NCBI GenBank assembly: GCA_949752795.1
Contig: CATKHW010000561.1
Span: 1 to 64,000, forward strand
Source: Hyperoodon ampullatus
Taxonomy: Eukaryota > Chordata > Mammalia > Artiodactyla > Ziphiidae
Length of the DNA stretch: 64,000 nucleotides
Direction of reading: 5' to 3'
Part shown: positions 1-64,000 of the stretch, piece after piece
Position numbering within the stretch: position 1 is the first letter of the stretch
How the letters are laid out: every line of letters begins with the position of its first letter
Position numbers and translations under genes: made by a program
Notes under the pieces: generated by a model
Database searches by the model: none
Seen by the model: the letters and a program-made list of their open reading frames with translations, nothing else
Told to the model about the DNA's origin: nothing

Positions 1-149
1 AAACATATGTAAAGAATATACAGAAAGAATCAGGACAATGTTATAGCAGAGAATATATGAAATGCCAGTAAATTTGAACATTTCTGTAAAGGGGACCATT
101 TCCTAGCTCCTAAAGTTGACCAAAACTGACACAAGAGGAAATCATTGAA
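1..149 (+). mobile_element. Decayed LINE-1 ORF2 fragment, 3' part (U1; cut by window start)
   Basis: Bases 120-149 read PKLTQEEIIE in the plus strand, matching the L1 ORF2 segment HKLPKLTQEEIENLN that lies between the endonuclease and the reverse-transcriptase core. Upstream, bases 49-119 follow the L1 nucleotide consensus (Y-A-N-K-F-D-N region: tgccagtaaatttgaaca), with a gap of about 12 bp and frame breaks. A stop (tga, 117-119) directly precedes the PKLT segment. The match ends at about 149, where the THOP1 block takes over within some 15 bp. Similarity is from memory of mammalian L1 consensus sequence; the subfamily cannot be named. Confidence 0.75.
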
Positions 150-222
150 GGTCATCATGTCTGCCCTTGGCATTCTCGGAACGCCCTGGCCTCAGAATGC
201 AGCATGGGTAGTCCATGGTAAC

Positions 223-434
223 CTGCGGAGAGGGGGTGGGGTTGAAAAAGGTTGGAACACTGCTCTCACTGAGGGAGTGGGTGTGGCCATCTCTGCTGTG
301 ACTGAACAAAGGGCACGGGAGCAGGGGGCCCAGGGCAGGACCCTCAGAGCCCGGCAGGCACAGGGGTGTGTCACAAGCATTTGGCCCAGGCCAAAGGGCG
401 CCTTCTTTGTCCGCACAGCTTCCCAAACACTCAC
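223..434 (-). other. Retained THOP1 intron (212 bp) with GT-AG ends (U1)
   Basis: Between the two exon pieces lies 212 bp of GC-rich sequence. On the minus strand it begins GTGAGT (434-429) and ends CCCCTCTCCGCAG (223 is the last base). In U1 the donor is AAG/GTGAGT, close to the vertebrate consensus. It holds long G runs on the plus strand and most of the variable sites that define the unit subtypes. An intact intron means the block came from genomic THOP1 DNA, not from an mRNA. Offset in every unit is T+78 to T+289. Confidence 0.8.
311..335 (+). other. Potential G-quadruplex motif (U1 copy)
   Basis: Four G runs (311-313, 317-319, 323-327, 333-335) separated by loops of 3-5 bases meet the classical G3+N1-7 pattern on the plus strand. 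In N-type units a fifth run is added (for example 3549-3578 in U3). Units with gcagtggagc in place of gcaggggagc (U2, U16, U17, U18, U22, U24, U25) lose a run and no longer meet the pattern. This is a sequence pattern only. Confidence 0.5.
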
Positions 435-594
435 CTTTCCACTCAGGCCGCCCTCTTTGTTGAAGTGTGTGTGGAACGTGTCCTCGCAGTACACCTCGCT
501 GCACAGCTAACCATAGGACTGGGCATCGTACCTTCCTGCCAGGTGACCGAAGTTCGCAGGCAGATGGGTCCCTGGGACCAACGCGGAGAGGCTC
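435..594 (-). pseudogene. THOP1-derived exon remnant carrying the substrate-binding loop (U1)
   Basis: This exon piece would encode the glycine-rich loop HLAGGYDAQYYGY of THOP1, whose tyrosines contact substrate. Here the loop reads HLAGRYDAQSYG followed by a stop. The second glycine is Arg, one loop tyrosine is Ser, and the codon for the last loop tyrosine (Tyr612 by recalled numbering) is TAG at 507-509. The 24 codons from that stop to the splice donor match THOP1 in number exactly. The upstream end at 594/595 (GGGCAG before GAG) is a weak acceptor-like junction with no strong pyrimidine tract. Sequence just inside this end (RSLSALVPGT) does not match THOP1 well, so the 5' limit is uncertain by about 20 bp. 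Confidence 0.85.
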
Positions 595-830
595 CTGCCC
601 TGACCACAGGTCGACCACAGCCGCTGCCCCAGATCGGGGGCCGCAAAGCAGCCCTGTCTGAATCCCCTGCCTCTAGAGGGAGTATTGGACCAACAGTTCT
701 AAAAAATGGGGTCCTTTCGGGCAACTCATCGGAGGGACACAAATAATTCTTTGCCGACTTTCTCCTGAAGCTTATGAGCGTTCACACTTAAGCCTGTTAC
801 TATGTCAGCTGTTTTGCTAAACATGAGCTC
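595..830. other. THOP1-side flank and transition to AT-rich DNA (U1)
   Basis: Bases 595 to about 700 are still GC-rich and could be the intron preceding the 160-bp exon, but no further THOP1 exon is recognisable on the minus strand. From about 700 the base composition shifts to AT-rich. A run of A residues with small variants (ataattc in U1/U15/U16, aaaaaatc in most units) lies near 738-752. I see no gene here. The same layout holds at T+450 to about T+685 in every unit. Confidence 0.5.
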
Positions 831-1060
831 ATGATCTAAATTTACACAATAATGAACAAATCAGCTACAAGTGGAGACAATCAGCGAAAACAATCAATAT
901 GAGAATTAGTTTCCCAAGGCCATCCATCAGATGTTGGAATAATCAGGTGCAAGGCAGAAAATATACATAAAACTGGAACTGAAACAAGCAACAAGGATGT
1001 TTTCAAAGACTGGTAGGATCTCTAAAACATTTGTAAAGTACATGTCATTGATAAAGCTAA
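830..1060 (+). mobile_element. Possible L1 ORF1-proximal remnant (weak) (U1)
   Basis: Around 928-946 the plus strand reads cagatgttggaataatcag, which resembles the segment cagatgttggaattatcaga found near the start of ORF1 in older mammalian L1 families. The A-rich bases before it, with repeated aatcaat/acaatca strings, also resemble that region. The match is short and from memory, so this is a suggestion only. If true, the unit holds two separated L1 pieces in the same orientation. It recurs at about T+685 to T+915 in all units. Confidence 0.3.
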
Positions 1061-1413
1061 ATACCCAAGGTTGTGTAATACAACAGACTAATCATTGAGA
1101 AGAGTGAAATTATGCTGTTTTGAAAACTATGGCAGGTCAGATTTTCTGCCTAATGATATAAGAAGATTTCTCTCAAAAATACACATTATTTCAAAGACTT
1201 ATTGGCTGTGAAATAAGTGAAGGGTATTTCAAATGGCTTGTCTGCAAAGAAAGGTGAGATGTAGGGAATCACAGAAAGTCGAGGGGAAAATATGTCAATA
1301 TATACATTGCTATATGGTGAACTAAGCTTAGGCCAGCAACAATGGAGAGGACCTGACCCTTAGAAACTTACAAGTAAGCTGGAATCTTCAAAAGTTCAAA
1401 TCTTTCTAAGTAA
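1060..1413. other. AT-rich sequence of unknown origin (U1)
   Basis: About 350 bp of AT-rich sequence with no open frame, RNA gene or mobile element that I can recognise. It is among the most conserved parts of the unit from copy to copy; the few variants (for example an aataagtg to aaaaagtg change and a 3-bp deletion in acacattatttc) serve as markers of duplication events. The equivalent stretch is present in every complete unit. Confidence 0.6.
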
Positions 1414-1767
1414 AAAGATTTATTTAAATGAATAACCAAGTGTTTTAATTGACATCAGATGATCAAAACAACAAACCCTGAGAACATAGAAAAAATATAA
1501 ATAAAGATATGAGCAGAACTTAATACAACAGAAAACGTATAAAATTGAGGCGATTTAGTAATTCCAAAGAATATTCTTTGAAAAGATTTAAAAGACACAC
1601 TTTGATTAAGGAAAACATAAACATATGTAAAGAATATACAGAAAGAATCAGGACAATGTTATAGCAGAGAATATATGAAATGCCAGTAAATTTGAACATT
1701 TCTGTAAAGGGGACCATTTCCTAGCTCCTAAAGTTGACCAAAACTGACACAAGAGGAAATCATTGAA
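1413..1767 (+). mobile_element. Decayed LINE-1 ORF2 fragment, full span across the U1/U2 boundary (reference)
   Basis: This is the complete L1 piece, recurring at T-350 to T+4 in each unit. Visible landmarks on the plus strand are: bases 1501-1524 read IKI-stop-AELN, matching IKIRAEIN; bases 1574-1588 read FFEKI, matching the SWFFEKINKI segment in another frame; then the NKFDN-like nucleotides; then PKLTQEEI at 1738-1761. Multiple stops and frame shifts show it is long dead. The antisense open frame of 65 or 84 codons over this region is a by-product. The L1 start near 1413 is soft, because similarity fades gradually into the AT-rich stretch upstream. Confidence 0.75.
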
Positions 1768-3238
1768 GGTCATCATGTCTGCCCTTGGCATTCTCGGAAC
1801 GCCCTGGCCTCAGAATGCAGCATCGGTATTCCATGGTAACCTGCGGAGAGGGGGTGGGGCTGAAGGAGGTTGGAACACTGCCCTCACTGAGGGAGTGGGT
1901 GTGGCCATCTCTGCTGTGACTGAACAAAGGGCAGTGGAGCAGGGGGCCCAGGGCAGGGCCCTCAGAGCCCGGCAGGCGCAGGGGTGTGTCACAAGCATTT
2001 GGCCCAGGCCAAAGGGCGCCTTCTTTGTCTGCACAGCTTCCCAAACACTCACCTTTCCACTCAGGCCGCCCTCTTTGTTGAAGTGTGTGTGGAACGTGTC
2101 CTCGCAGTACACCTCGCTGCACAGCTAACCATAGGACTGGGCATCGTACCTTCCTGCCAGGTGACCGAAGTTCGCAGGCAGATGGGTCCCTGGGACCAAC
2201 GCGGAGAGGCTCCTGCCCTGACCACAGGTCGACCACAGCCGCTGCCCCAGATCTGGTGTTGCAAAGCAGCCCTGTCTGAATCCCCTGCCTCTAGAGGGAG
2301 TATTGGACCAACACTTCTAAAAAATGGGGTCCTTGCGGGCAACTCATCGGAGGGACACAAAAAAATCTTTGCCGACTTTCTCCTGAAGCTTACGAGCGTT
2401 CACACTTAAGCCTTTTACAATGTCAGCTGTTTAGCTAAACATGAGCTCAAGATCTAAATTTACACAATAATGAAGAAATCAGCTACAAGGGGAGACAATC
2501 AGCAAAAACAATCAATATGAGAATTAGTTTCCCAAGGCCACCCATCAGATGTTGGAATAATCAGGTGCAAGGCAGAATATATACATAAAACTGGAACTGG
2601 AACAAGGAACAAGGATGTTTTCAAAGACTGGTAGGATCTCTAAAACATTTGTAAAGTACATGTCATTGATAAAGCTAAATACTCAAAGGTTGTGTAATAC
2701 AACAGATTAATCATTGAGAAGAGTGAAATTATGCTGTTTTGAAAACTATGGCAGGTCAGATTTTCTGCCTAATGATATAAGAAGATTTCTCTCAAAAATA
2801 CACATTATTTCAAAGACTTATTGGCTGTGAAATAAGTGAAGGGTATTTCAAATGGCTTGTCTGCAAAGAAAGGTGAGATGTAGGGAATCACAGAAAGTCG
2901 AGGGGAAAATATGTCAATATATACATTGCTATATGGTGAACTAAGCCTTAGGCCAGCAACAATGGAGAGGACCTGACCCTTAGAAACTTACAAGTAAGCT
3001 GGAATCTTCAAAAGTTCAAATCTTTATAAGTAAAAAGATTTATTAAAATGAATAACCAAGTGTTTTAATTGACATCAGATGATCCAAACAACAAACCCTG
3101 AGAACATAGAAAAAATATAAATAAAGATATGAGCAGAACTTAATACAACAGAAAACGTATAAAATTGAGGTGATTTAGTAAGTCCAAAGAATATTCTTTG
3201 AAAAGATTTAAAAGACACACTTTGATTAAGGAAAACAT
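1619..3238 (+). repeat. Unit U2 (1,620 bp, K-type)
   Basis: Marks: catcggtattcc, gcagtggagc (G-quadruplex run lost), and a private atctggtgtt at 2251-2260. THOP1 block at 1781-2212. Its second half is of the common type, unlike U1. Confidence 0.97.
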
Positions 3239-4858
3239 AAACATATGTAAAGAATATACAGAAAGAATCAGGACAATGTTATAGCAGAGAATATATGAAA
3301 TGCCAGTAAATTTGAACATTTCTGTAAAGGGGACCATTTCCTAGCTCCTAAAGTTGACCAAAACTGACACAAGAGGAAATCATTGAAGGTCATCATGTCT
3401 GCCCTTGGTATTCTTGGAACGCCTTGGCCTCAGAATGCAGCATCGGTAGTCCATGGTAACCTGCGGAGAGGGGGTGGGGCTGAAGGAGGTTGGAACACTG
3501 CCCTCACTGAGGGAGTGGGTGTGGCCATCTCTGCTGTGACTGAACAAAGGGCAGGGGAGCAGGGGGCCCAGGGCAGGGCCCTCAGAGCCCGGCAGGACCA
3601 GGGGAGTGTCACAAGCATTTGGCCCAGGCCAAAGGGCGCCTTCTTTGTCTGCACAGCTTCCCAAACACTCACATTTCCACTCAGGCCGCCCTCTTTGTTG
3701 AAGTGTGTGTGGAACGTGTCCTCGCAGTACACCTCTCTGCACAGCTAACCATAGGACTGGGCATCGTACCTTCCTGCCAGGTGACCGAAGTTCGCAGGCA
3801 GATGGGTCACTGGGACCAACGCGGAGAGGCTCCTGCCCTGACCACAGGTCGACCACAGCCGCTGCCCCAGATCGGGGGTTGCAAAGCAGCCCTGTCTGAA
3901 TCCCCTGCCTCTAGAGGGAGTATTGGACCAACACTTCTAAAAAATGGGGTCCTTGCGGGCAACTCATCAGAGGGACACAAAAAAATCTTTGCCGACTTTC
4001 TCCTGAAGCTTACGAGCGTTCACACTTAAGCCTTTTACAATGTCAGCTGTTTAGCTAAACATGAGCTCATGATCTAAATTTACACAATAATGAAGAAATC
4101 AGCTACAAGGGGAGACAATCAGCAAAAACAATCAATATGAGAATTAGTTTCCCAAGGCCACCCATCAGATGTTGGAATAATCAGGTGCAAGGCAGAATAT
4201 ATACATAAAACTGGAACTGGAACAAGGAACAAGGATGTTTTCAAAGACTGGTAGGATCTCTAAAACATTTGTAAAGTACATGTCATTGATAAAGCTAAAT
4301 ACTCAAAGGTTGTGTAATACAACAGATTAATCATTGAGAAGAGTGAAATTATGCTGTTTTGAAAACTATGGCAGGTCAGATTTTCTGCCTAATGATATAA
4401 GAAGATTTCTCTCAAAAATACACATTATTTCAAAGACTTATTGGCTGTGAAATAAGTGAAGGGTATTTCAAATGGCTTGTCTGCAAAGAAAGGTGAGATG
4501 TAGGGAATCACAGAAAGTCGAGGGGAAAATATGTCAATATATACATTGCTATATGGTGAACTAAGCCTTAGGCCAGCAACAATGGAGAGGACCTGACCCT
4601 TAGAAACTTACAAGTAAGCTGGAATCTTCAAAAGTTCAAATCTTTATAAGTAAAAAGATTTATTAAAATGAATAACCAAGTGTTTTAATTGACATCAGAT
4701 GATCCAAACAACAAACCCTGAGAACATAGAAAAAATATAAATAAAGATATGAGCAGAACTTAATACAACAGAAAACGTATAAAATTGAGGTGATTTAGTA
4801 AGTCCAAAGAATATTCTTTGAAAAGATTTAAAAGACACACTTTGATTAAGGAAAACAT
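3239..4858 (+). repeat. Unit U3 (1,620 bp, N-type)
   Basis: First of twelve near-identical N-type units (ggcaggaccaggggagtg, cacatttcc). Private changes: ggtattcttgg near 3408, gccttggcc at 3421, ctctctgcac near 3733, catcagagg near 3965. THOP1 block at 3401-3832. Confidence 0.97.
3558..3569 (+). promoter_or_regulatory. CTCF-like core (U3 copy; present in nearly every unit)
   Basis: The string agcagggggccc resembles the CTCF core (consensus near CCACCAGGGGGCGC), sharing A, C, then AGGGGGC and the final C, with mismatches at two informative positions. It lies inside the retained THOP1 intron at T+175 to T+186. U15 carries a further change (gggggcacagg). Unverified; the G-rich context alone could produce such a match. 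Confidence 0.3.
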
Positions 4859-6478: not shown

Positions 6479-8098
6479 AAACATATGTAAAGAATATACA
6501 GAAAGAATCAGGACAATGTTATAGCAGAGAATATATGAAATGCCAGTAAATTTGAACATTTCTGTAAAGGGGACCATTTCCTAGCTCCTAAAGTTGACCA
6601 AAACTGACACAAGAGGAAATCATTGAAGGTCATCATGTCTGCCCTTGGCATTCTTGGAACGCCCTGGCCTCAGAATGCAGCATCGGTAGTCCATGGTAAC
6701 CTGCGGAGAGGGGGTGGGGCTGAAGGAGGTTGGAACACTGCCCTCACTGAGGGAGTGGGTGTGGCCATCTCTGCTGTGACTGAACAAAGGGCAGGGGAGC
6801 AGGGGGCCCAGGGCAGGGCCCTCAGAGCCCGGCAGGACCAGGGGAGTGTCACAAGCATTTGGCCCAGGCCAAAGGGCGCCTTCTTTGTCTGCACAGCTTC
6901 CCAAACACTCACATTTCCACTCAGGCCGCCCTCTTTGTTGAAGTGTGTGTGGAACGTGTCCTCGCAGTACACCTCGCTGCACAGCTAACCATAGGACTGG
7001 GCATCGTACCTTCCTGCCAGGTGACCGAAGTTCGCAGGCAGATGGGTCACTGGGACCAACGCGGAGAGGCTCCTGCCCTGACCACAGGTCGACCACAGCC
7101 GCTGCCCCAGATCGGGGGTTGCAAAGCAGCCCTGTCTGAATCCCCTGCCTCTAGAGGGAGTATTGGACCAACACTTCTAAAAAATGGGGTCCTTGCGGGC
7201 AACTCATCGGAGGGACACAAAAAAATCTTTGCCGACTTTCTCCTGAAGCTTACGAGCGTTCACACTTAAGCCTTTTACAATGTCAGCTGTTTAGCTAAAC
7301 ATGAGCTCATGATCTAAATTTACACAATAATGAAGAAATCAGCTACAAGGGGAGACAATCAGCAAAAACAATCAATATGAGAATTAGTTTCCCAAGGCCA
7401 CCCATCAGATGTTGGAATAATCAGGTGCAAGGCAGAATATATACATAAAACTGGAACTGGAACAAGGAACAAGGATGTTTTCAAAGACTGGTAGGATCTC
7501 TAAAACATTTGTAAAGTACATGTCATTGATAAAGCTAAATACTCAAAGGTTGTGTAATACAACAGATTAATCATTGAGAAGAGTGAAATTATGCTGTTTT
7601 GAAAACTATGGCAGGTCAGATTTTCTGCCTAATGATATAAGAAGATTTCTCTCAAAAATACACATTATTTCAAAGACTTATTGGCTGTGAAATAAGTGAA
7701 GGGTATTTCAAATGGCTTGTCTGCAAAGAAAGGTGAGATGTAGGGAATCACAGAAAGTCGAGGGGAAAATATGTCAATATATACATTGCTATATGGTGAA
7801 CTAAGCCTTAGGCCAGCAACAATGGAGAGGACCTGACCCTTAGAAACTTACAAGTAAGCTGGAATCTTCAAAAGTTCAAATCTTTATAAGTAAAAAGATT
7901 TATTAAAATGAATAACCAAGTGTTTTAATTGACATCAGATGATCCAAACAACAAACCCTGAGAACATAGAAAAAATATAAATAAAGATATGAGCAGAACT
8001 TAATACAACAGAAAACGTATAAAATTGAGGTGATTTAGTAAGTCCAAAGAATATTCTTTGAAAAGATTTAAAAGACACACTTTGATTAAGGAAAACAT
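6479..8098 (+). repeat. Unit U5 (1,620 bp, N-type consensus)
   Basis: I see no private difference in this copy; it serves as the reference for the U3-U14 block. THOP1 block at 6641-7072. Confidence 0.97.
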
Positions 8099-9718
8099 AA
8101 ACATATGTAAAGAATATACAGAAAGAATCAGGACAATGTTATAGCAGAGAATATATGAAATGCCAGTAAATTTGAACATTTCTGTAAAGGGGACCATTTC
8201 CTAGCTCCTAAAGTTGACCAAAACTGACACAAGAGGAAATCATTGAAGGTCATCATGTCTGCCCTTGGCATTCTTGGAACGCCCTGGCCTCAGAATGCAG
8301 CATCGGTAGTCCATGGTAACCTGCGGAGAGGGGGTGGGGCTGAAGGAGGTTGGAACACTGCCCTCACTGAGGGAGTGGGTGTGGCCATCTCTGCTGTGAC
8401 TGAACAAAGGGCAGGGGAGCAGGGGGCCCAGGGCAGGGCCCTCAGAGCCCGGCAGGACCAGGGGAGTGTCACAAGCATTTGGCCCAGGCCAAAGGGCGCC
8501 TTCTTTGTCTGCACAGCTTCCCAAACACTCACATTTCCACTCAGGCCGCCCTCTTTGTTGAAGTGTGTGTGGAACGTGTCCTCGCAGTACACCTCGCTGC
8601 ACAGCTAACCATAGGACTGGGCATCGTACCTTCCTGCCAGGTGACCGAAGTTCGCAGGCAGATGGGTCACTGGGACCAACGCGGAGAGGCTCCTGCCCTG
8701 ACCACAGGTCGACCACAGCCGCTGCCCCAGATCGGGGGTTGCAAAGCAGCCCTGTCTGAATCCCCTGCCTCTAGAGGGAGTATTGGACCAACACTTCTAA
8801 AAAATGGGGTCCTTGCGGGCAACTCATCGGAGGGACACAAAAAAATCTTTGCCGACTTTCTCCTGAAGCTTACGAGCGTTCACACTTAAGCCTTTTACAA
8901 TGTCAGCTGTTTAGCTAAACATGAGCTCATGATCTAAATTTACACAATAATGAAGAAATCAGCTACAAGGGGAGACAATCAGCAAAAACAATCAATATGA
9001 GAATTAGTTTCCCAAGGCCACCCATCAGATGTTGGAATAATCAGGTGCAAGGCAGAATATATACATAAAACTGGAACTGGAACAAGGAACAAGGATGTTT
9101 TCAAAGACTGGTAGGATCTCTAAAACATTTGTAAAGTACATGTCATTGATAAAGCTAAATACTCAAAGGTTGTGTAATACAACAGATTAATCATTGAGAA
9201 GAGTGAAATTATGCTGTTTTGAAAACTATGGCAGGTCAGATTTTCTGCCTAATGATATAAGAAGATTTCTCTCAAAAATACACATTATTTCAAAGACTTA
9301 TTGGCTGTGAAATAAGTTAAGGGTATTTCAAATGGCTTGTCTGCAAAGAAAGGTGAGATGTAGGGAATCACAGAAAGTCGAGGGGAAAATATGTCAATAT
9401 ATACATTGCTATATGGTGAACTAAGCCTTAGGCCAGCAACAATGGAGAGGACCTGACCCTTAGAAACTTACAAGTAAGCTGGAATCTTCAAAAGTTCAAA
9501 TCTTTATAAGTAAAAAGATTTATTAAAATGAATAACCAAGTGTTTTAATTGACATCAGATGATCCAAACAACAAACCCTGAGAACATAGAAAAAATATAA
9601 ATAAAGATATGAGCAGAACTTAATACAACAGAAAACGTATAAAATTGAGGTGATTTAGTAAGTCCAAAGAATATTCTTTGAAAAGATTTAAAAGACACAC
9701 TTTGATTAAGGAAAACAT
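8099..9718 (+). repeat. Unit U6 (1,620 bp, N-type)
   Basis: Differs from U5 at 9318 (aataagttaa). THOP1 block at 8261-8692. Confidence 0.97.
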
Positions 9719-11338
9719 AAACATATGTAAAGAATATACAGAAAGAATCAGGACAATGTTATAGCAGAGAATATATGAAATGCCAGTAAATTTGAACATT
9801 TCTGTAAAGGGGACCATTTCCTAGCTCCTAAAGTTGACCAAAACTGACACAAGAGGAAATCATTGAAGGTCATCATGTCTGCCCTTGGCATTCTTGGAAC
9901 GCCCTGGCCTCAGAATGCAGCATCGGTAGTCCATGGTAACCTGCGGAGAGGGGGTGGGGCTGAAGGAGGTTGGAACACTGCCCTCACTGAGGGAGTGGGT
10001 GTGGCCATCTCTGCTGTGACTGAACAAAGGGCAGGGGAGCAGGGGGCCCAGGGCAGGGCCCTCAGAGCCCGGCAGGACCAGGGGAGTGTCACAAGCATTT
10101 GGCCCAGGCCAAAGGGCGCCTTCTTTGTCTGCACAGCTTCCCAAACACTCACATTTCCACTCAGGCCGCCCTCTTTGTTGAAGTGTGTGTGGAACGTGTC
10201 CTCGCAGTACACCTCGCTGCACAGCTAACCATAGGACTGGGCATCGTACCTTCCTGCCACGTGACCGAAGTTCGCAGGCAGATGGGTCACTGGGACCAAC
10301 GCGGAGAGGCTCCTGCCCTGACCACAGGTCGACCACAGCCGCTGCCCCAGATCGGGGGTTGCAAAGCAGCCCTGTCTGAATCCCCTGCCTCTAGAGGGAG
10401 TATTGGACCAACACTTCTAAAAAATGGGGTCCTTGCGGGCAACTCATCGGAGGGACACAAAAAAATCTTTGCCGACTTTCTCCTGAAGCTTACGAGCGTT
10501 CACACTTAAGCCTTTTACAATGTCAGCTGTTTAGCTAAACATGAGCTCATGATCTAAATTTACACAATAATGAAGAAATCAGCTACAAGGGGAGACAATC
10601 AGCAAAAACAATCAATATGAGAATTAGTTTCCCAAGGCCACCCATCAGATGTTGGAATAATCAGGTGCAAGGCAGAATATATACATAAAACTGGAACTGG
10701 AACAAGGAACAAGGATGTTTTCAAAGACTGGTAGGATCTCTAAAACATTTGTAAAGTACATGTCATTGATAAAGCTAAATACTCAAAGGTTGTGTAATAC
10801 AACAGATTAATCATTGAGAAGAGTGAAATTATGCTGTTTTGAAAACTATGGCAGGTCAGATTTTCTGCCTAATGATATAAGAAGATTTCTCTCAAAAATA
10901 CACATTATTTCAAAGACTTATTGGCTGTGAAAAAAGTGAAGGGTATTTCAAATGGCTTGTCTGCAAAGAAAGGTGAGATGTAGGGAATCACAGAAAGTCG
11001 AGGGGAAAATATGTCAATATATACATTGCTATATGGTGAACTAAGCCTTAGGCCAGCAACAATGGAGAGGACCTGACCCTTAGAAACTTACAAGTAAGCT
11101 GGAATCTTCAAAAGTTCAAATCTTTATAAGTAAAAAGATTTATTAAAATGAATAACCAAGTGTTTTAATTGACATCAGATGATCCAAACAACAAACCCTG
11201 AGAACATAGAAAAAATATAAATAAAGATATGAGCAGAACTTAATACAACAGAAAACGTATAAAATTGAGGTGATTTAGTAAGTCCAAAGAATATTCTTTG
11301 AAAAGATTTAAAAGACACACTTTGATTAAGGAAAACAT
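9719..11338 (+). repeat. Unit U7 (1,620 bp, N-type)
   Basis: Private C at 10260 (gccacgtgacc); A at 10933 shared with U4 and U8. THOP1 block at 9881-10312. Confidence 0.97.
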
Positions 11339-12958
11339 AAACATATGTAAAGAATATACAGAAAGAATCAGGACAATGTTATAGCAGAGAATATATGAAA
11401 TGCCAGTAAATTTGAACATTTCTGTAAAGGGGACCATTTCCTAGCTCCTAAAGTTGACCAAAACTGACACAAGAGGAAATCATTGAAGGTCATCATGTCT
11501 GCCCTTGGCATTCTTGGAACGCCCTGGCCTCAGAATGCAGCATCGGTAGTCCATGGTAACCTGCGGAGAGGGGGTCGGGCTGAAGGAGGTTGGAACACTG
11601 CCCTCACTGAGGGAGTGGGTGTGGCCATCTCTGCTGTGACTGAACAAAGGGCAGGGGAGCAGGGGGCCCAGGGCAGGGCCCTCAGAGCCCGGCAGGACCA
11701 GGGGAGTGTCACAAGCATTTGGCCCAGGCCAAAGGGCGCCTTCTTTGTCTGCACAGCTTCCCAAACACTCACATTTCCACTCAGGCCGCCCTCTTTGTTG
11801 AAGTGTGTGTGGAACGTGTCCTCGCAGTACACCTCGCTGCACAGCTAACCATAGGACTGGGCATCGTACCTTCCTGCCAGGTGACCGAAGTTCGCAGGCA
11901 GATGGGTCACTGGGACCAACGCGGAGAGGCTCCTGCCCTGACCACAGGTCGACCACAGCCGCTGCCCCAGATCGGGGGTTGCAAAGCAGCCCTGTCTGAA
12001 TCCCCTGCCTCTAGAGGGAGTATTGGACCAACACTTCTAAAAAATGGGGTCCTTGCGGGCAACTCATCGGAGGGACACAAAAAAATCTTTGCCGACTTTC
12101 TCCTGAAGCTTACGAGCGTTCACACTTAAGCCTTTTACAATGTCAGCTGTTTAGCTAAACATGAGCTCATGATCTAAATTTACACAATAATGAAGAAATC
12201 AGCTACAAGGGGAGACAATCAGCAAAAACAATCAATATGAGAATTAGTTTCCCAAGGCCACCCATCAGATGTTGGAATAATCAGGTGCAAGGCAGAATAT
12301 ATACATAAAACTGGAACTGGAACAAGGAACAAGGATGTTTTCAAAGACTGGTAGGATCTCTAAAACATTTGTAAAGTACATGTCATTGATAAAGCTAAAT
12401 ACTCAAAGGTTGTGTAATACAACAGATTAATCATTGAGAAGAGTGAAATTATGCTGTTTTGAAAACTATGGCAGGTCAGATTTTCTGCCTAATGATATAA
12501 GAAGATTTCTCTCAAAAATACACATTATTTCAAAGACTTATTGGCTGTGAAAAAAGTGAAGGGTATTTCAAATGGCTTGTCTGCAAAGAAAGGTGAGATG
12601 TAGGGAATCACAGAAAGTCGAGGGGAAAATATGTCAATATATACATTGCTATATGGTGAACTAAGCCTTAGGCCAGCAACAATGGAGAGGACCTGACCCT
12701 TAGAAACTTACAAGTAAGCTGGAATCTTCAAAAGTTCAAATCTTTATAAGTAAAAAGATTTATTAAAATGAATAACCAAGTGTTTTAATTGACATCAGAT
12801 GATCCAAACAACAAACCCTGAGAACATAGAAAAAATATAAATAAAGATATGAGCAGAACTTAATACAACAGAAAACGTATAAAATTGAGGTGATTTAGTA
12901 AGTCCAAAGAATATTCTTTGAAAAGATTTAAAAGACACACTTTGATTAAGGAAAACAT
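11339..12958 (+). repeat. Unit U8 (1,620 bp, N-type)
   Basis: C at 11576 (ggggtcgggc) shared only with U9; A at 12553 shared with U7 and U4. THOP1 block at 11501-11932. Confidence 0.97.
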
Positions 12959-14578
12959 AAACATATGTAAAGAATATACAGAAAGAATCAGGACAATGTT
13001 ATAGCAGAGAATATATGAAATGCCAGTAAATTTGAACATTTCTGTAAAGGGGACCATTTCCTAGCTCCTAAAGTTGACCAAAACTGACACAAGAGGAAAT
13101 CATTGAAGGTCATCATGTCTGCCCTTGGCATTCTTGGAACGCCCTGGCCTCAGAATGCAGCATCGGTAGTCCATGGTAACCTGCGGAGAGGGGGTCGGGC
13201 TGAAGGAGGTTGGAACACTGCCCTCACTGAGGGAGTGGGTGTGGCCATCTCTGCTGTGACTGAACAAAGGGCAGGGGAGCAGGGGGCCCAGGGCAGGGCC
13301 CTCAGAGCCCGGCAGGACCAGGGGAGTGTCACAAGCATTTGGCCCAGGCCAAAGGGCGCCTTCTTTGTCTGCACAGCTTCCCAAACACTCACATTTCCAC
13401 TCAGGCCGCCCTCTTTGTTGAAGTGTGTGTGGAACGTGTCCTCGCAGTACACCTCGCTGCACAGCTAACCATAGGACTGGGCATCGTACCTTCCTGCCAG
13501 GTGACCGAAGTTCGCAGGCAGATGGGTCACTGGGACCAACGCGGAGAGGCTCCTGCCCTGACCACAGGTCGACCACAGCCGCTGCCCCAGATCGGGGGTT
13601 GCAAAGCAGCCCTGTCTGAATCCCCTGCCTCTAGAGGGAGTATTGGACCAACACTTCTAAAAAATGGGGTCCTTGCGGGCAACTCATCGGAGGGACACAA
13701 AAAAATCTTTGCCGACTTTCTCCTGAAGCTTACGAGCGTTCACACTTAAGCCTTTTACAATGTCAGCTGTTTAGCTAAACATGAGCTCATGATCTAAATT
13801 TACACAATAATGAAGAAATCAGCTACAAGGGGAGACAATCAGCAAAAACAATCAATATGAGAATTAGTTTCCCAAGGCCACCCATCAGATGTTGGAATAA
13901 TCAGGTGCAAGGCAGAATATATACATAAAACTGGAACTGGAACAAGGAACAAGGATGTTTTCAAAGACTGGTAGGATCTCTAAAACATTTGTAAAGTACA
14001 TGTCATTGATAAAGCTAAATACTCAAAGGTTGTGTAATACAACAGATTAATCATTGAGAAGAGTGAAATTATGCTGTTTTGAAAACTATGGCAGGTCAGA
14101 TTTTCTGCCTAATGATATAAGAAGATTTCTCTCAAAAATACACATTATTTCAAAGACTTATTGGCTGTGAAATAAGTGAAGGGTATTTCAAATGGCTTGT
14201 CTGCAAAGAAAGGTGAGATGTAGGGAATCACAGAAAGTCGAGGGGAAAATATGTCAATATATACATTGCTATATGGTGAACTAAGCCTTAGGCCAGCAAC
14301 AATGGAGAGGACCTGACCCTTAGAAACTTACAAGTAAGCTGGAATCTTCAAAAGTTCAAATCTTTATAAGTAAAAAGATTTATTAAAATGAATAACCAAG
14401 TGTTTTAATTGACATCAGATGATCCAAACAACAAACCCTGAGAACATAGAAAAAATATAAATAAAGATATGAGCAGAACTTAATACAACAGAAAACGTAT
14501 AAAATTGAGGTGATTTAGTAAGTCCAAAGAATATTCTTTGAAAAGATTTAAAAGACACACTTTGATTAAGGAAAACAT
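12959..14578 (+). repeat. Unit U9 (1,620 bp, N-type)
   Basis: C at 13196 shared with U8, but lacks the aaaaagtg variant, marking the end of a monomer duplication. THOP1 block at 13121-13552. Confidence 0.97.
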
Positions 14579-16197
14579 AAACATATGTAAAGAATATACA
14601 GAAAGAATTAGGACAATGTTATAGCAGAGAATATATGAAATGCCAGTAAATTTGAACATTTCTGTAAAGGGGACCATTTCCTAGCTCCTAAAGTTGACCA
14701 AAACTGACACAAGAGGAAATCATTGAAGGTCATCATGTCTGCCCTTGGCATTCTTGGAACGCCCTGGCCTCAGAATGCAGCATCGGTAGTCCATGGTAAC
14801 CTGCGGAGAGGGGGTGGGGCTGAAGGAGGTTGGAACACTGCCCTCACTGAGGGAGTGGGTGTGGCCATCTCTGCTGTGACTGAACAAAGGGCAGGGGAGC
14901 AGGGGGCCCAGGGCAGGGCCCTCAGAGCCCGGCAGGACCAGGGGAGTGTCACAAGCATTTGGCCCAGGCCAAAGGGCGCCTTCTTTGTCTGCACAGCTTC
15001 CCAAACACTCACATTTCCACTCAGGCCGCCCTCTTTGTTGAAGTGTGTGTGGAACGTGTCCTCGCAGTACACCTCACTGCACAGCTAACCATAGGACTGG
15101 GCATCGTACCTTCCTGCCAGGTGACCGAAGTTCGCAGGCAGATGGGTCACTGGGACCAACGCGGAGAGGCTCCTGCCCTGACCACAGGTCGACCACAGCC
15201 GCTGCCCCAGATCGGGGGTTGCAAAGCAGCCCTGTCTGAATCCCCTGCCTCTAGAGGGAGTATTGGACCAACACTTCTAAAAAATGGGGTCCTTGCGGGC
15301 AACTCATCGGAGGGACACAAAAAAATCTTTGCCGACTTTCTCCTGAAGCTTACGAGCGTTCACACTTAAGCCTTTTACAATGTCAGCTGTTTAGCTAAAC
15401 ATGAGCTCATGATCTAAATTTACACAATAATGAAGAAATCAGCTACAAGGGGAGACAATCAGCAAAAACAATCAATATGAGAATTAGTTTCCCAAGGCCA
15501 CCCATCAGATGTTGGAATAATCAGGTGCAAGGCAGAATATATACATAAAACTGGAACTGGAACAAGGAACAAGGATGTTTTCAAAGACTGGTAGGATCTC
15601 TAAAACATTTGTAAAGTACATGTCATTGATAAAGCTAAATACTCAAAGGTTGTGTAATACAACAGATTAATCATTGAGAAGAGTGAAATTATGCTGTTTT
15701 GAAAACTATGGCAGGTCAGATTTTCTGCCTAATGATATAAGAAGATTTCTCTCAAAAATACACATTATTTCAAAGACTTATTGGCTGTGAAATAAGTGAA
15801 GGGTATTTCAAATGGCTTGTCTGCAAAGAAAGGTGAGATGTAGGGAATCACAGAAAGTCGAGGGGAAAATATGTCAATATATACATTGCTATATGGTGAA
15901 CTAAGCCTTAGGCCAGCAACAATGGAGAGGACCTGACCCTTAGAAACTTACAAGTAAGCTGGAATCTTCAAAAGTTCAAATCTTTATAAGTAAAAAGATT
16001 TATTAAATTAATAACCAAGTGTTTTAATTGACATCAGATGATCCAAACAACAAACCCTGAGAACATAGAAAAAATATAAATAAAGATATGAGCAGAACTT
16101 AATACAACAGAAAACGTATAAAATTGAGGTGATTTAGTAAGTCCAAAGAATATTCTTTGAAAAGATTTAAAAGACACACTTTGATTAAGGAAAACAT
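14579..16197 (+). repeat. Unit U10 (1,619 bp, N-type)
   Basis: Private gaatta near 14609 and A at 15076 (cctcactgc). One-base deletion with a substitution near 16006-16009 (attaaattaataacc) shared only with U12. THOP1 block at 14741-15172. Confidence 0.97.
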
Positions 16198-17817
16198 AAA
16201 CATATGTAAAGAATATACAGAAAGAATCAGGACAATGTTATAGCAGAGAATATATGAAATGCCAGTAAATTTGAACATTTCTGTAAAGGGGACCATTTCC
16301 TAGCTCCTAAAGTTGACCAAAACTGACACAAGAGGAAATCATTGAAGGTCATCATGTCTGCCCTTGGCATTCTTGGAACGCCCTGGCCTCAGAATGCAGC
16401 ATCGGTAGTCCATGGTAACCTGCGGAGAGGGGGTGGGGCTGAAGGAGGTTGGAACACTGCCCTCACTGAGGGAGTGGGTGTGGCCATCTCTGCTGTGACT
16501 GAACAAAGGGCAGGGGAGCAGGGGGCCCAGGGCAGGGCCCTCAGAGCCCGGCAGGACCAGGGGAGTGTCACAAGCATTTGGCCCAGGCCAAAGGGCGCCT
16601 TCTTTGTCTGCACAGCTTCCCAAACACTCACATTTCCACTCAGGCCGCCCTCTTTGTTGAAGTGTGTGTGGAACGTGTCCTCGCAGTACACCTCGCTGCA
16701 CAGCTAACCATAGGACTGGGCATCGTACCTTCCTGCCAGGTGACCGAAGTTCGCAGGCAGATGGGTCACTGGGACCAACGCGGAGAGGCTCCTGCCCTGA
16801 CCACAGGTCGACCACAGCCGCTGCCCCAGATCGGGGGTTGCAAAGCAGCCCTGTCTGAATCCCCTGCCTCTAGAGGGAGTATTGGACCAACACTTCTAAA
16901 AAATGGGGTCCTTGCGGGCAACTCATCGGAGGGACACAAAAAAATCTTTGCCGACTTTCTCCTGAAGCTTACGAGCGTTCACACTTAAGCCTTTTACAAT
17001 GTCAGCTGTTTAGCTAAACATGAGCTCATGATCTAAATTTACACAATAATGAAGAAATCAGCTACAAGGGGAGACAATCAGCAAAAACAATCAATATGAG
17101 AATTAGTTTCCCAAGGCCACCCATCAGATGTTGGAATAATCAGGTGCAAGGCAGAATATATACATAAAACTGGAACTGGAACAAGGAACAAGGATGTTTT
17201 CAAAGACTGGTAGGATCTCTAAAACATTTGTAAAGTACATGTCATTGATAAAGCTAAATACTCAAAGGTTGTGTAATACAACAGATTAATCATTGAGAAG
17301 AGTGAAATTATGCTGTTTTGAAAACTATGGCAGGTCAGATTTTCTGCCTAATGATATAAGAAGATTTCTCTCAAAAATACACATTATTTCAAAGACTTAT
17401 TGGCTGTGAAATAAGTGAAGGGTATTTCAAATGGCTTGTCTGCAAAGAAAGGTGAGATGTAGGGAATCACAGAAAGTCGAGGGGAAAATATGTCAATATA
17501 TACATTGCTATATGGTGAACTAAGCCTTAGGCCAGCAACAATGGAGAGGACCTGACCCTTAGAAACTTACAAGTAACCTGGAATCTTCAAAAGTTCAAAT
17601 CTTTATAAGTAAAAAGATTTATTAAAATGAATAACCAAGTGTTTTAATTGACATCAGATGATCCAAACAACAAACCCTGAGAACATAGAAAAAATATAAA
17701 TAAAGATATGAGCAGAACTTAATACAACAGAAAACGTATAAAATTGAGGTGATTTAGTAAGTCCAAAGAATATTCTTTGAAAAGATTTAAAAGACACACT
17801 TTGATTAAGGAAAACAT
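16198..17817 (+). repeat. Unit U11 (1,620 bp, N-type)
   Basis: C at 17577 (aagtaacctg) shared only with U13. THOP1 block at 16360-16791. Confidence 0.97.
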
Positions 17818-19436
17818 AAACATATGTAAAGAATATACAGAAAGAATCAGGACAATGTTATAGCAGAGAATATATGAAATGCCAGTAAATTTGAACATTT
17901 CTGTAAAGGGGACCATTTCCTAGCTCCTAAAGTTGACCAAAACTGACACAAGAGGAAATCATTGAAGGTCATCATGTCTGCCCTTGGCATTCTTGGAACG
18001 CCCTGGCCTCAGAATGCAGCATCGGTAGTCCATGGTAACCTGCGGAGAGGGGGTGGGGCTGAAGGAGGTTGGAACACTGCCCTCACTGAGGGAGTGGGTG
18101 TGGCCATCTCTGCTGTGACTGAACAAAGGGCAGGGGAGCAGGGGGCCCAGGGCAGGGCCCTCAGAGCCCGGCAGGACCAGGGGAGTGTCACAAGCATTTG
18201 GCCCAGGCCAAAGGGCGCCTTCTTTGTCTGCACAGCTTCCCAAACACTCACATTTCCACTCAGGCCGCCCTCTTTGTTGAAGTGTGTGTGGAACGTGTCC
18301 TCGCAGTACACCTCGCTGCACAGCTAACCATAGGACTGGGCATCGTACCTTTCTGCCAGGTGACCGAAGTTCGCAGGCAGATGGGTCACTGGGACCAACG
18401 CGGAGAGGCTCCTGCCCTGACCACAGGTCGACCACAGCCGCTGCCCCAGATCGGGGGTTGCAAAGCAGCCCTGTCTGAATCCCCTGCCTCTAGAGGGAGT
18501 ATTGGACCAACACTTCTAAAAAATGGGGTCCTTGCGGGCAACTCATCGGAGGGACACAAAAAAATCTTTGCCGACTTTCTCCTGAAGCTTACGAGCGTTC
18601 ACACTTAAGCCTTTTACAATGTCAGCTGTTTAGCTAAACATGAGCTCATGATCTAAATTTACACAATAATGAAGAAATCAGCTACAAGGGGAGACAATCA
18701 GCAAAAACAATCAATATGAGAATTAGTTTCCCAAGGCCACCCATCAGATGTTGGAATAATCAGGTGCAAGGCAGAATATATACATAAAACTGGAACTGGA
18801 ACAAGGAACAAGGATGTTTTCAAAGACTGGTAGGATCTCTAAAACATTTGTAAAGTACATGTCATTGATAAAGCTAAATACTCAAAGGTTGTGTAATACA
18901 ACAGATTAATCATTGAGAAGAGTGAAATTATGCTGTTTTGAAAACTATGGCAGGTCAGATTTTCTGCCTAATGATATAAGAAGATTTCTCTCAAAAATAC
19001 ACATTATTTCAAAGACTTATTGGCTGTGAAATAAGTGAAGGGTATTTCAAATGGCTTGTCTGCAAAGAAAGGTGAGATGTAGGGAATCACAGAAAGTCGA
19101 GGGGAAAATATGTCAATATATACATTGCTATATGGTGAACTAAGCCTTAGGCCAGCAACAATGGAGAGGACCTGACCCTTAGAAACTTACAAGTAAGCTG
19201 GAATCTTCAAAAGTTCAAATCTTTATAAGTAAAAAGATTTATTAAATTAATAACCAAGTGTTTTAATTGACATCAGATGATCCAAACAACAAACCCTGAG
19301 AACATAGAAAAAATATAAATAAAGATATGAGCAGAACTTAATACAACAGAAAACGTATAAAATTGAGGTGATTTAGTAAGTCCAAAGAATATTCTTTGAA
19401 AAGATTTAAAAGACACACTTTGATTAAGGAAAACAT
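17818..19436 (+). repeat. Unit U12 (1,619 bp, N-type)
   Basis: T at 18352 (cctttctgcc) shared only with U14; deletion near 19245 shared only with U10. THOP1 block at 17980-18411. Confidence 0.97.
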
Positions 19437-21056
19437 AAACATATGTAAAGAATATACAGAAAGAATCAGGACAATGTTATAGCAGAGAATATATGAAATG
19501 CCAGTAAATTTGAACATTTCTGTAAAGGGGACCATTTCCTAGCTCCTAAAGTTGACCAAAACTGACACAAGAGGAAATCATTGAAGGTCATCATGTCTGC
19601 CCTTGGCATTCTTGGAACGCCCTGGCCTCAGAATGCAGCATCGGTAGTCCATGGTAACCTGCGGAGAGGGGGTGGGGCTGAAGGAGGTTGGAACACTGCC
19701 CTCACTGAGGGAGTGGGTGTGGCCATCTCTGCTGTGACTGAACAAAGGGCAGGGGAGCAGGGGGCCCAGGGCAGGGCCCTCAGAGCCCGGCAGGACCAGG
19801 GGAGTGTCACAAGCATTTGGCCCAGGCCAAAGGGCGCCTTCTTTGTCTGCACAGCTTCCCAAACACTCACATTTCCACTCAGGCCGCCCTCTTTGTTGAA
19901 GTGTGTGTGGAACGTGTCCTCGCAGTACACCTCGCTGCACAGCTAACCATAGGACTGGGCATCGTACCTTCCTGCCAGGTGACCGAAGTTCGCAGGCAGA
20001 TGGGTCACTGGGACCAACGCGGAGAGGCTCCTGCCCTGACCACAGGTCGACCACAGCCGCTGCCCCAGATCGGGGGTTGCAAAGCAGCCCTGTCTGAATC
20101 CCCTGCCTCTAGAGGGAGTATTGGACCAACACTTCTAAAAAATGGGGTCCTTGCGGGCAACTCATCGGAGGGACACAAAAAAATCTTTGCCGACTTTCTC
20201 CTGAAGCTTACGAGCGTTCACACTTAAGCCTTTTACAATGTCAGCTGTTTAGCTAAACATGAGCTCATGATCTAAATTTACACAATAATGAAGAAATCAG
20301 CTACAAGGGGAGACAATCAGCAAAAACAATCAATATGAGAATTAGTTTCCCAAGGCCACCCATCAGATGTTGGAATAATCAGGTGCAAGGCAGAATATAT
20401 ACATAAAACTGGAACTGGAACAAGGAACAAGGATGTTTTCAAAGACTGGTAGGATCTCTAAAACATTTGTAAAGTACATGTCATTGATAAAGCTAAATAC
20501 TCAAAGGTTGTGTAATACAACAGATTAATCATTGAGAAGAGTGAAATTATGCTGTTTTGAAAACTATGGCAGGTCAGATTTTCTGCCTAATGATATAAGA
20601 AGATTTCTCTCAAAAATACACATTATTTCAAAGACTTATTGGCTGTGAAATAAGTGAAGGGTATTTCAAATGGCTTGTCTGCAAAGAAAGGTGAGATGTA
20701 GGGAATCACAGAAAGTCGAGGGGAAAATATGTCAATATATACATTGCTATATGGTGAACTAAGCCTTAGGCCAGCAACAATGGAGAGGACCTGACCCTTA
20801 GAAACTTACAAGTAACCTGGAATCTTCAAAAGTTCAAATCTTTATAAGTAAAAAGATTTATTAAAATGAATAACCAAGTGTTTTAATTGACATCAGATGA
20901 TCCAAACAACAAACCCTGAGAACATAGAAAAAATATAAATAAAGATATGAGCAGAACTTAATACAACAGAAAACGTATAAAATTGAGGTGATTTAGTAAG
21001 TCCAAAGAATATTCTTTGAAAAGATTTAAAAGACACACTTTGATTAAGGAAAACAT
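19437..21056 (+). repeat. Unit U13 (1,620 bp, N-type)
   Basis: C at 20816 shared with U11. THOP1 block at 19599-20030. Confidence 0.97.
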
Positions 21057-59927: not shown

Positions 59928-61547
59928 AAACATATGTAAAGAATATACAGAAAGAATCAGGACAATGTTATAGCAGAGAATATATGAAATGCCAGTAAAT
60001 TTGAACATTTCTGTAAAGGGGACCATTTCCTAGCTCCTAAAGTTGACCAAAACTGACACAAGAGGAAATCATTGAAGGTCATCATGTCTGCCCTTGGCAT
60101 TCTTGGAACGCCCTGGCCTCAGAATGCAGCATCGGTAGTCCATGGTAACCTGTGGAGAGGGGGCGGGGCTGAAGGAGGTTGGAACACTGCCCTCACTGAG
60201 GGAGTGGGTGTGGCCATCTCTGCTGTGACTGAACAAAGGGCAGGGGAGCAGGGGGCCCAGGGCAGGGCCCTCAGAGCCCGGCAGGAGCAGGGGAGTGTCA
60301 CAAGCATTTGGCCCAGGCCAAAGCGCGCTTTCTTTGTCTGCACAGCTTCCCAAACACTCACATTTCCACTCAGGCCGCCCTCTTTGTTGAAGTGTGTGTG
60401 GAACGTGTCCTCGCAGTACACCTCGCTGCACAGCTAACCATAGGACTGGGCATCGTCCCTTCCTGCCAGGTGACGGAAGTTCGCAGGCAGATGGGTCACT
60501 GGGACCAACGCGGAGAGGCTCCTGCCCTGACCACAGGTCGACCACTGCCGCTGCCCCAGATCGGGGGTTGCAAAGCAGCCCTGTCTGAATCCCCTGCCTC
60601 TAGAGGGAGTATTGGACCAACACTTCTAAAAAATGGGGTCCTTGCGGGCAACTCATCGGAGGGACACAAAAAAATCTTTGCCGACTTTCTCCTGAAGCTT
60701 ACGAGCGTTCACACTTAAGCCTTTTACAATGTCAGCTGTTTAGCTAAACATGAGCTCATGATCTAAATTTACACAATAATGAAGAAATCAGCTACAAGGG
60801 GAGACAATCAGCAAAAACAATCAATATGAGAATTAGTTTCCCAAGGCCACCCATCAGATGTTGGAATAATCAGGTGCAAGGCAGAATATATACATAAAAC
60901 TGGAACTGGAACAAGGAACAAGGATGTTTTCAAAGACTGGTAGGATCTCTAAAACATTTGTAAAGTACATGTCATTGATAAAGCTAAATACTCAAAGGTT
61001 GTGTAATACAACAGATTAATCATTGAGAAGAGTGAAATTATGCTGTTTTGAAAACTATGGCAGGTCAGATTTTCTGCCTAATGATATAAGAAGATTTCTC
61101 TCAAAAATACACATTATTTCAAAGACTTATTGGCTGTGAAATAAGTGAAGGGTATTTCAAATGGCTTGTCTGCAAAGAAAGGTGAGATGTAGGGAATCAC
61201 AGAAAGTCGAGGGGAAAATATGTCAATATATACATTGCTATATGGTGAACTAAGCCTTAGGCCAGCAACAATGGAGAGGACCTGACCCTTAGAAACTTAC
61301 AAGTAAGCTGGAATCTTCAAAAGTTCAAATCTTTATAAGTAAAAAGATTTATTAAAATGAATAACCAAGTGTTTTAATTGACATCAGATGATCAAAACAA
61401 CAAACCCTGAGAACATAGAAAAAATATAAATAAAGATATGAGCAGAACTTAATACAACAGAAAACGTATAAAATTGAGGCGATTTAGTAAGTCCAAAGAA
61501 TATTCTTTGAAAAGATTTAAAAGACACACTTTGATTAAGGAAAACAT
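59928..61547 (+). repeat. Unit U38 (1,620 bp, N-type, subtype B)
   Basis: As U34 in its first half; the tail switches to gaacttaata and gaggcgattt, the latter otherwise found only in U1, U15, U16 and U39. THOP1 block at 60090-60521. Confidence 0.97.
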
Positions 61548-63167
61548 AAACATATGTAAAGAATATACAGAAAGAATCAGGACAATGTTATAGCAGAGAA
61601 TATATGAAATGCCAGTAAATTTGAACATTTCTGTAAAGGGGACCATTTCCTAGCTCCTAAAGTTGACCAAAACTGACACAAGAGGAAATCATTGAAGGTC
61701 ATCATGTCTGCCCTTGGCATTCTTGGAACGCCCTGGCCTCAGAATGCAGCATCGGTAGTCCATGGTAACCTGCGGAGAGGGGGTTGGGCTGAAGGAGGTT
61801 GGAACACTGCCCTCACTGAGGGAGTGGGTGTGGCCATCTCTGCTGTGACTGAACAAAGGGCAGGGGAGCAGGGGGCCCAGGGCAGGGCCCTCAGAGCCCG
61901 GCAGGACCAGGGGAGTGTCACAAGCATTTGGCCCAGGCCAAAGCGCGCTTTCTTTGTCTGCACAGCTTCCCAAACACTCACATTTCCACTCAGGCCGCCC
62001 TCTTTGTTGAAGTGTGTGTGGAACGTGTCCTCGCAGTACACCTCGCTGCACAGCTAACCATAGGACTGGGCATCGTACCTTCCTGCCAGGTGACCGAAGT
62101 TCGCAGGCAGATGGGTCACTGGGACCAACGCGGAGAGGCTCCTGCCCTGACCACAGGTCGACCACTGCCGCTGCCCCAGATCGGGGGTTGCAAAGCAGCC
62201 CTGTCTGAATCCCCTGCCTCTAGAGGGAGTATTGGACCAACACTTCTAAAAAATGGGGTCCTTGCGGGCAACTCATCGGAGGGACACAAAAAAATCTTTG
62301 CCGACTTTCTCCTGAAGCTTACGAGCGTTCACACTTAAGCCTTTTACAATGTCAGCTGTTTAGCTAAACATGAGCTCATGATCTAAATTTACACAATAAT
62401 GAAGAAATCAGCTACAAGGGGAGACAATCAGCAAAAACAATCAATATGAGAATTAGTTTCCCAAGGCCACCTATCAGATGTTGGAATAATCAGGTGCAAG
62501 GCAGAATATATACATAAAACTGGAACTGGAACAAGGAACAAGGATGTTTTCAAAGACTGGTAGGATCTCTAAAACATTTGTAAAGTACATGTCATTGATA
62601 AAGCTAAATACTCAAAGGTTGTGTAATACAACAGATTAATCATTGAGAAGAGTGAAATTATGCTGTTTTGAAAACTATGGCAGGTCAGATTTTCTGCCTA
62701 ATGATATAAGAAGATTTCTCTCAAAAATACACATTATTTCAAAGACTTATTGGCTGTGAAATAAGTGAAGGGTATTTCAAATGGCTTGTCTGCAAAGAAA
62801 GGTGAGATGTAGGGAATCACAGAAAGTCGAGGGGAAAATATGTCAATATATACATTGCTATATGGTGAACTAAGCCTTAGGCCAGCAACAATGGAGAGGA
62901 CCTGACCCTTAGAAACTTACAAGTAAGCTGGAATCTTCAAAAGTTCAAATCTTTCTAAGTAAAAAGATTTATTAAAATGAATAACCAAGTGTTTTAATTG
63001 ACATCAGATGATCAAAACAACAAACCCTGAGAACATAGAAAAAATATAAATAAAGATATGAGCAGAACTTAATACAACAGAAAACGTATAAAATTGAGGC
63101 GATTTAGTAAGTCCAAAGAATATTCTTTGAAAAGATTTAAAAGACACACTTTGATTAAGGAAAACAT
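61548..63167 (+). repeat. Unit U39 (1,620 bp, N-type, subtype C)
   Basis: Private gggttgggct near 61782; has ccacctatcag near 62468 without the aacatttctctc tail. THOP1 block at 61710-62141. Confidence 0.97.
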
Positions 63168-64000
63168 AAACATATGTAAAGAATATACAGAAAGAATCAG
63201 GACAATGTTATAGCAGAGAATATATGAAATGCCAGTAAATTTGAACATTTCTGTAAAGGGGACCATTTCCTAGCTCCTAAAGTTGACCAAAACTGACACA
63301 AGAGGAAATCATTGAAGGTCATCATGTCTGCCCTTGGCATTCTTGGAACGCCCTGGCCTCAGAATGCAGCATCGGTAGTCCATGGTAACCTGCGGAGAGG
63401 GGGTGGGGCTGAAGGAGGTTGGAACACTGCCCTCACTGAGGGAGTGGGTGTGGCCATCTCTGCTGTGACTGAACAAATGGCAGGGGAGCAGGGGGCCCAG
63501 GGCAGGGCCCTCAGAGCCCGGCAGGACCAGGGGAGTGTCACAAGCATTTGGCCCAGGCCAAAGCGCGCTTTCTTTGTCTGCACAGCTTCCCAAACACTCA
63601 CATTTCCACTCAGGCCGCCCTCTTTGTTGAAGTGTGTGTGGAACGTGTCCTCGCAGTACACCTCGCTGCACAGCTAACCATAGGACTGGGCATCGTACCT
63701 TCCTGCCAGGTGACCGAAGTTCGCAGGCAGATGGGTCACTGGGACCAACGCGGAGAGGCTCCTGCCCTGACCACAGGTCGACCACTGCCGCTGCCCCAGA
63801 TCGGGGGTTGCAAAGCAGCCCTGTCTGAATCCCCTGCCTCTAGAGGGAGTATTGGACCAACACTTCTAAAAAATGGGGTCCTTGCGGGCAACTCATCGGA
63901 GGGACACAAAAAAATCTTTGCCGACTTTCTCCTGAAGCTTACGAGCGTTCACACTTAAGCCTTTTACAATGTCAGCTGTTTAGCTAAACATGAGCTCATG
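63168..64000 (+). repeat. Unit U40 (first 833 bp, N-type, subtype C; cut by window end)
   Basis: Private caaatggcag near 63475. THOP1 block at 63330-63761. The window stops inside the AT-rich part of the unit. Confidence 0.95.

Follow-up and report, generated by a model that had tools for sequence, protein, structure and literature searches.

A likely non-coding whale macrosatellite whose 1,620-bp unit joins a THOP1-like fragment, apparently of paralogue origin, to a probable L1 ORF2 remnant

Long head-to-tail arrays of kilobase-sized units are familiar from the primate macrosatellites D4Z4, DXZ4, and RS447, and RS447-type megasatellites are tandemly repeated coding genes. The common cetacean satellite is described as occurring in all cetaceans and as heterochromatic and abundant, and has a unit of about 1.58 kilobases (kb) in dolphins and about 1.76 kb in baleen whales. 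This study concerns a 64,000-nucleotide stretch of DNA (contig CATKHW010000561.1, positions 1 to 64,000; hereafter the window) that consists of tandem copies of a unit carrying, on its minus strand, a fragment similar to the thimet oligopeptidase gene THOP1. In the relevant part of PMC9659126, which cites Kapitonov et al. (1998), the common cetacean satellite is described as similar to the 3'-terminal portion of L1, a link that also appears, with the same 1998 work cited, in a table row of PMC6947457, and a passage of PMC5615363 states that some satellites in cetaceans and bovids have repeat lengths exceeding one or two kilobases. The same part of PMC9659126 gives PROsat of Phodopus and Pvc 20 of Phoca vitulina as satellites linked to L1 open reading frame 2 (ORF2).

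The window resembles the primate macrosatellites in its kilobase units and long head-to-tail arrangement, but its source sequence is different and it has no frame under detectable selection. Like PROsat and Pvc 20, it has an L1 ORF2-related stretch, here a probable one, inside the satellite, whereas the part of PMC9659126 on these two mentions no host gene exons. The common cetacean satellite is, as the window probably is too, a whale tandem satellite with L1-related sequence; as far as the part of its description considered here goes, that sequence is L1 3'-terminal, whereas the window instead combines a probable piece of ORF2 with a THOP1-like piece in a unit of 1,620 bp. The array is best explained, with a probability of roughly three in four, as a non-coding whale macrosatellite, with a baleen whale as the most likely host, that was founded by a piece of a THOP1-like paralogue lying beside a probable L1 ORF2 remnant and was then amplified in tandem. 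In the searched literature, outside of which most subscription-journal papers lay, no earlier report of the THOP1-like half of such a unit was found, nor any paper joining THOP1 or thimet oligopeptidase with satellites; the main texts of the blue-whale and humpback genome papers contain neither THOP1 nor thimet, and that of the gray-whale genome paper contains no THOP1. Satellite births are rarely traceable, and part of the seed would be legible here as two exons and the intron between them, all from a duplicated gene. Since other copies of this source gene are still recorded in baleen whales, the founding breakpoint and its age should be datable with whole whale genomes.

The array and its THOP1-like fragment

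The window is a single head-to-tail array in which every base lies within a copy and all copies have one orientation. Unit starts number 40, from base 1 to base 63168 in steps of 1,617-1,620 bp, and the resulting complete and partial copies bear out the first-pass annotation, which had described about 39.5 copies of a 1.62-kb unit in a single orientation. With kilobase units, head to tail, in one orientation and in many copies, the array is a macrosatellite. The window contains no flanking DNA, and both array ends lie beyond 1..64000. Tandem Repeats Finder did not report the array, the longest period that it covered here being 500, below the 1,620-bp unit. Parts of the unit are given in coordinates of copy 1, whose positions equal consensus positions up to 1066 and which has no bases at columns 1067 and 1328.

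1..64000, no strand: complete array, in which the 1,620-bp unit occurs in 39 full copies and once as an 833-bp partial copy
1..1618, no strand: first unit copy, reference for the part coordinates; the parts repeat every ~1,620 bp
163..222, minus strand: THOP1-like exon B, first 20 codons; THOP1 similarity ends thereafter, at unit 163
223..434, minus strand: THOP1-like intron with GTGAGT at its start and a consensus length of 212 bp (from splice ends and whale records)
435..575, minus strand: THOP1-like exon A, from P-[G/V]-T-H-L-P-A to L-S-G-[K/N] (from protein similarity)
576..599, minus strand: flank before exon A, probably an intron end (from translation match to whale records)

When the two exons were joined over the intron, with X at the in-frame stop of exon A, the product matched a thimet oligopeptidase in PDB, presumably the human one, with E=2.6e-22, matched neurolysin less well (best 5.6e-16), and reached 28 bits against Pfam Peptidase_M3 (cut-off 27), so that the earlier proposal of a minus-strand THOP1 fragment is borne out far above chance level. 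The stop reads TAG in 39 of the 40 copies and TAT in copy 31. The intron acceptor is CGCAG in the consensus; among the 40 copies, the acceptor pattern was matched in 34 (CGCAG in 30, CACAG in 4) and unmatched in the other six. Compared by translated protein records and not by DNA, the intron matches the read-through intron of a gray-whale THOP1-like protein and of toothed-whale THOP1 isoforms. The gray-whale record (P0003) aligned to the unit in two segments, one spanning intron and exon B (E=7e-32) and one taking in exon A and the first part of the intron (E=2e-21), and with these whale protein records the proposed check for the same intron as in THOP1 came out positive. In translation, the flank at 576..599 agrees with blue-whale P0001 as far as 596 and with bottlenose-dolphin P0008 as far as 599. 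Exon B is probably the last coding exon, a rank that we infer. Among the repeats within copy 3, no obvious target-site duplication was seen by eye at the THOP1 junctions.

Source of the THOP1-like part

A search with the exon join gave blue-whale P0001 (119 amino acids, aa) as the sole candidate in its length range; in a wider length range two of ten candidates passed, P0002 and P0003, both from gray whale. A further search seeded with P0003 found 706 proteins, 120 of which were listed, and the comparison set comprised 122 records in all. Over 67 aligned positions, the residues H4, L5, S20, C25, T33, K66, and G67 are common to the unit and to each of the four THOP1-like records from baleen whales (blue-whale P0001, gray-whale P0002 and P0003, and humpback P0005). 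None of them occurs in the other records (117-118 with a residue at the position in question), among them THOP1 from bottlenose dolphin, false killer whale, vaquita, finless porpoise, and hippopotamus. Because these seven residues are common to the unit and the four baleen-whale records and absent from the others, the source of the THOP1 part is a diverged THOP1-like paralogue and not THOP1 itself, and the unit and the baleen-whale paralogue share descent. The shared residues also make it very probable that the window comes from a whale. The origin claimed by the first-pass annotation is thereby corrected as regards the gene: the THOP1-like fragment with its intron stands, while the attribution to THOP1 itself gives way to the paralogue.

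In a FastTree tree of 21 rows (the unit, the four paralogues, and 16 records picked from the 118 others), the unit and the paralogues formed a clade with support 1.000, inside which the unit grouped with humpback P0005 (support 0.850). R15 and K63 are shared by the unit with P0005 alone among the four paralogues. Like the unit, the baleen-whale records, which represent its likely source, carry the seven shared derived residues in their exons, and gray-whale P0003 also carries the intron; unlike the unit, the predicted baleen-whale proteins continue beyond the unit's break point. Paralogue-like states are found in a minority of the 40 copies, with the donor-codon K in 14 and the P-G-T glycine in 12, so the majority copy type looks derived.

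The baleen-whale THOP1-like records have changes, one of them W-to-C, that are absent from all 117-118 other records scored; some have odd exon content, and P0003 reads through the intron. The gene behind them looks like a decaying THOP1 duplicate.

The probable L1 remnant and the rest of the unit

An L1 ORF2 on the plus strand had also been proposed by the first-pass annotation. Searches against Pfam and PDB with reading frames from the remainder of the unit returned no L1, and the part of the proposal that has support is a short, decayed stretch with moderate statistics, listed here with the parts that separate it from the THOP1-like fragment.

600..780, no strand: stretch between the flank and 781; no match found, possibly more of the upstream intron
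781..1487, no strand: AT-rich (by eye) stretch; no credible Pfam match, no Rfam match, and no clear ORF2 signal
1488..1761, plus strand: probable decayed L1 ORF2 remnant, human-numbered residues ~337-446 (from frameshift-tolerant alignment)

The ORF2-like stretch carries frameshifts and stops and crosses the border between copies 1 and 2 to unit 143. Frameshift-tolerant alignment, the sole approach to yield an L1 signal, was carried out over unit 781-1620 plus 1-150 and compared with shuffles. Human and mouse ORF2 336-459 together scored 51.5 on the plus strand against a shuffle mean of 30.3, with 2 of 2,000 shuffles as good (3 of 2,000 for human ORF2 alone), and the minus strand scored under the shuffle mean. 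In an earlier alignment with the mouse piece, the counterpart of FFEKINK fell within unit 1490-1596, and a further ORF2 piece (2/500 shuffles) gave a block at unit 64-143 corresponding to ANKFDNLDEMDKFL..PKLTQEEI; the range 337-446 consists of two blocks joined, the human-plus-mouse alignment having been traced at its end only. ORF2 pieces from residue 454 on gave no clear signal on either strand. These alignments argue, with moderate confidence, for an L1 ORF2 remnant of ~270 bp at unit 1490-143. The alignment of ORF2 336-453, like that of human and mouse ORF2 together, stops at unit 143, which leaves 20 bp before the THOP1-like exon.

Blastn of the unit against one L1 contig (rodent-like by judgement) gave no significant match, with best E-values of 0.72 and 0.44 under two settings, and scans of viral and prokaryote contigs for L1 or THOP1-like loci yielded one L1 contig and nothing further. 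One contig catalogued as viral, IMGVR_UViG_3300006201_000159, has a long LINE-1 ORF2 beside frames that are bacterial or phage-like by eye, and is probably a chimeric assembly with host DNA.

Copy variation, coding potential, and alternative origins

The 39 full copies have a mean pairwise identity of 98.8% (range 96.8-100%); 123 of 1,621 columns are variable, 41 of them through a single copy. The excess similarity between neighbours was equalled by 0 of 2,000 permutations at lag 1, 22 at lag 2, 3 each at lags 3 and 4, and 83 at lag 5, and blocks have been copied at lags 3, 4, and 5, e.g., copies 22-23/25-26, 29-30/34-35, and 32-34/36-38. Copies 5-14 (window 6479-22676) are very uniform, with consecutive pairs at least 99.75% identical. 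A distinct common set of variants between 696 and 1328 is found in copies 1, 15, and 16 and is absent from copy 2, although at smaller unit coordinates (177 and 435 among them) copy 2 has variants in common with copies 1 and 15; alleles are mosaic among these four copies. High identity, together with the similarity of neighbours and the copied blocks, marks concerted evolution, and the polymorphism fits unequal exchange and conversion as the presumed mechanism.

One open frame in the unit was assessed for selection:

157..510, plus strand: open frame of 117 aa beginning with ATG, antisense to the THOP1-like fragment, with 40 occurrences in the window

Of its 45 polymorphisms, 33 are non-synonymous (30.7 expected) and 12 are synonymous (12.4 expected), and there are 0 stops against 1.65 expected; across the copies there is no sign of coding selection on this frame, the polymorphism being as expected without selection. 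The array is most likely non-coding. That it could be a tandemly repeated coding gene with this frame as its product, in the manner of the RS447-type megasatellites, is suggested by the 40 occurrences but is very improbable, given that the substitution counts match the no-selection expectation, that the lack of stops is unremarkable when merely 1.65 are expected, and that the frame runs antisense to the THOP1-like exons and intron.

If the non-coding macrosatellite with a paralogue-derived part is taken as the preferred reading, its founding would have involved a piece of genomic DNA, intron included, from a duplicated THOP1-like gene in decay: one exon, the intron after it, and the beginning of the following coding exon, which is probably the last. 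This piece would have come to lie beside other sequence with a probable L1 ORF2 remnant in the opposite orientation, the two presumably being neighbours before amplification; the whole ~1.6-kb segment would then have multiplied in tandem, and its copies may have been kept alike by unequal exchange and gene conversion. Several observations weigh against this reading. Mouse L1 ORF2 alone was equalled by 12 of 2,000 shuffles (42 of 500 in an earlier version), and an order-reversed control protein scored 45.0, reached by 11 of 2,000 shuffles, which shows that base composition contributes to the L1 score. When mouse-like ORF2 from residue 336 on was taken as eight pieces on two strands, the best, 336-453 on plus (4/600), was the best of 16 tests and is not significant once corrected (about 0.1); the second best was 690-807 on minus (13/600). 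About 700 bp of the unit (781-1489) are without explanation by any match found, and, because the 117-aa frame is open in 40 places, there is a slight possibility of a product. Lastly, the paralogue is recorded only in baleen whales among the 122 records compared, and, since 120 of the 706 relatives were listed, it may exist outside them.

The age of the unit bears on two further alternatives. Identical residues in the intron tail, counted over short translated non-coding stretches, amount to 36/47 between the unit and the gray-whale paralogue, 23/30 between the unit and false-killer-whale THOP1, and 24/30 between the gray-whale paralogue and THOP1. The distance between unit and paralogue is thus about equal to that between paralogue and THOP1, and such similar distances suit an old origin of the unit. 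The array might be a species variant of the common cetacean satellite, in which case only the THOP1 half of the unit would be new, although the unit lengths of that satellite differ from 1,620 bp. This is conceivable but rather unlikely: the kilobase unit, the probable whale host, the L1 link in the parts of PMC9659126 and PMC6947457 concerned, and the intron divergence, which suggests an old family, are in its favour, whereas the link given in that part of PMC9659126 is to the L1 3'-terminal part and the window offers probable ORF2 ~337-446 only, with no clear signal from later pieces in a comparison that covered ORF2 from residue 336 on. If the array were that satellite, the account of how a well-known satellite arose would need rewriting. 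The broader proposition, that a major whale satellite, perhaps this one, drew half its unit from a host protease paralogue and, although long presented as derived from L1, was founded as a gene-plus-L1 chimera before or around the split of modern whales, is more doubtful still.

A recent amplification in one or a few rorqual species, from a humpback-like THOP1-like copy, would account for the grouping of the unit with P0005, the shared R15 and K63, and the 98.8% likeness of the copies. It is nevertheless a rather unlikely history, as two shared residues can in our judgement be convergent, homogenisation of an old family also gives high copy identity, and the intron distances look old. Probable L1 sequence adjoins the THOP1 segment, as would suit a processed (cDNA) pseudogene carried by L1; this candidate was rejected as having almost no chance of being right, because an intron of 212 bp with splice ends separates the exons and the segment is a genomic fragment, not cDNA. 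Screens for other elements gave no Rfam match in the first 5,000 bases of the window, no match of phage records to window 1-3300, and no CENP-B or CTCF core pattern in the unit consensus. One G-quadruplex-like motif lies on the plus strand at consensus 311-335, within the THOP1-like intron.

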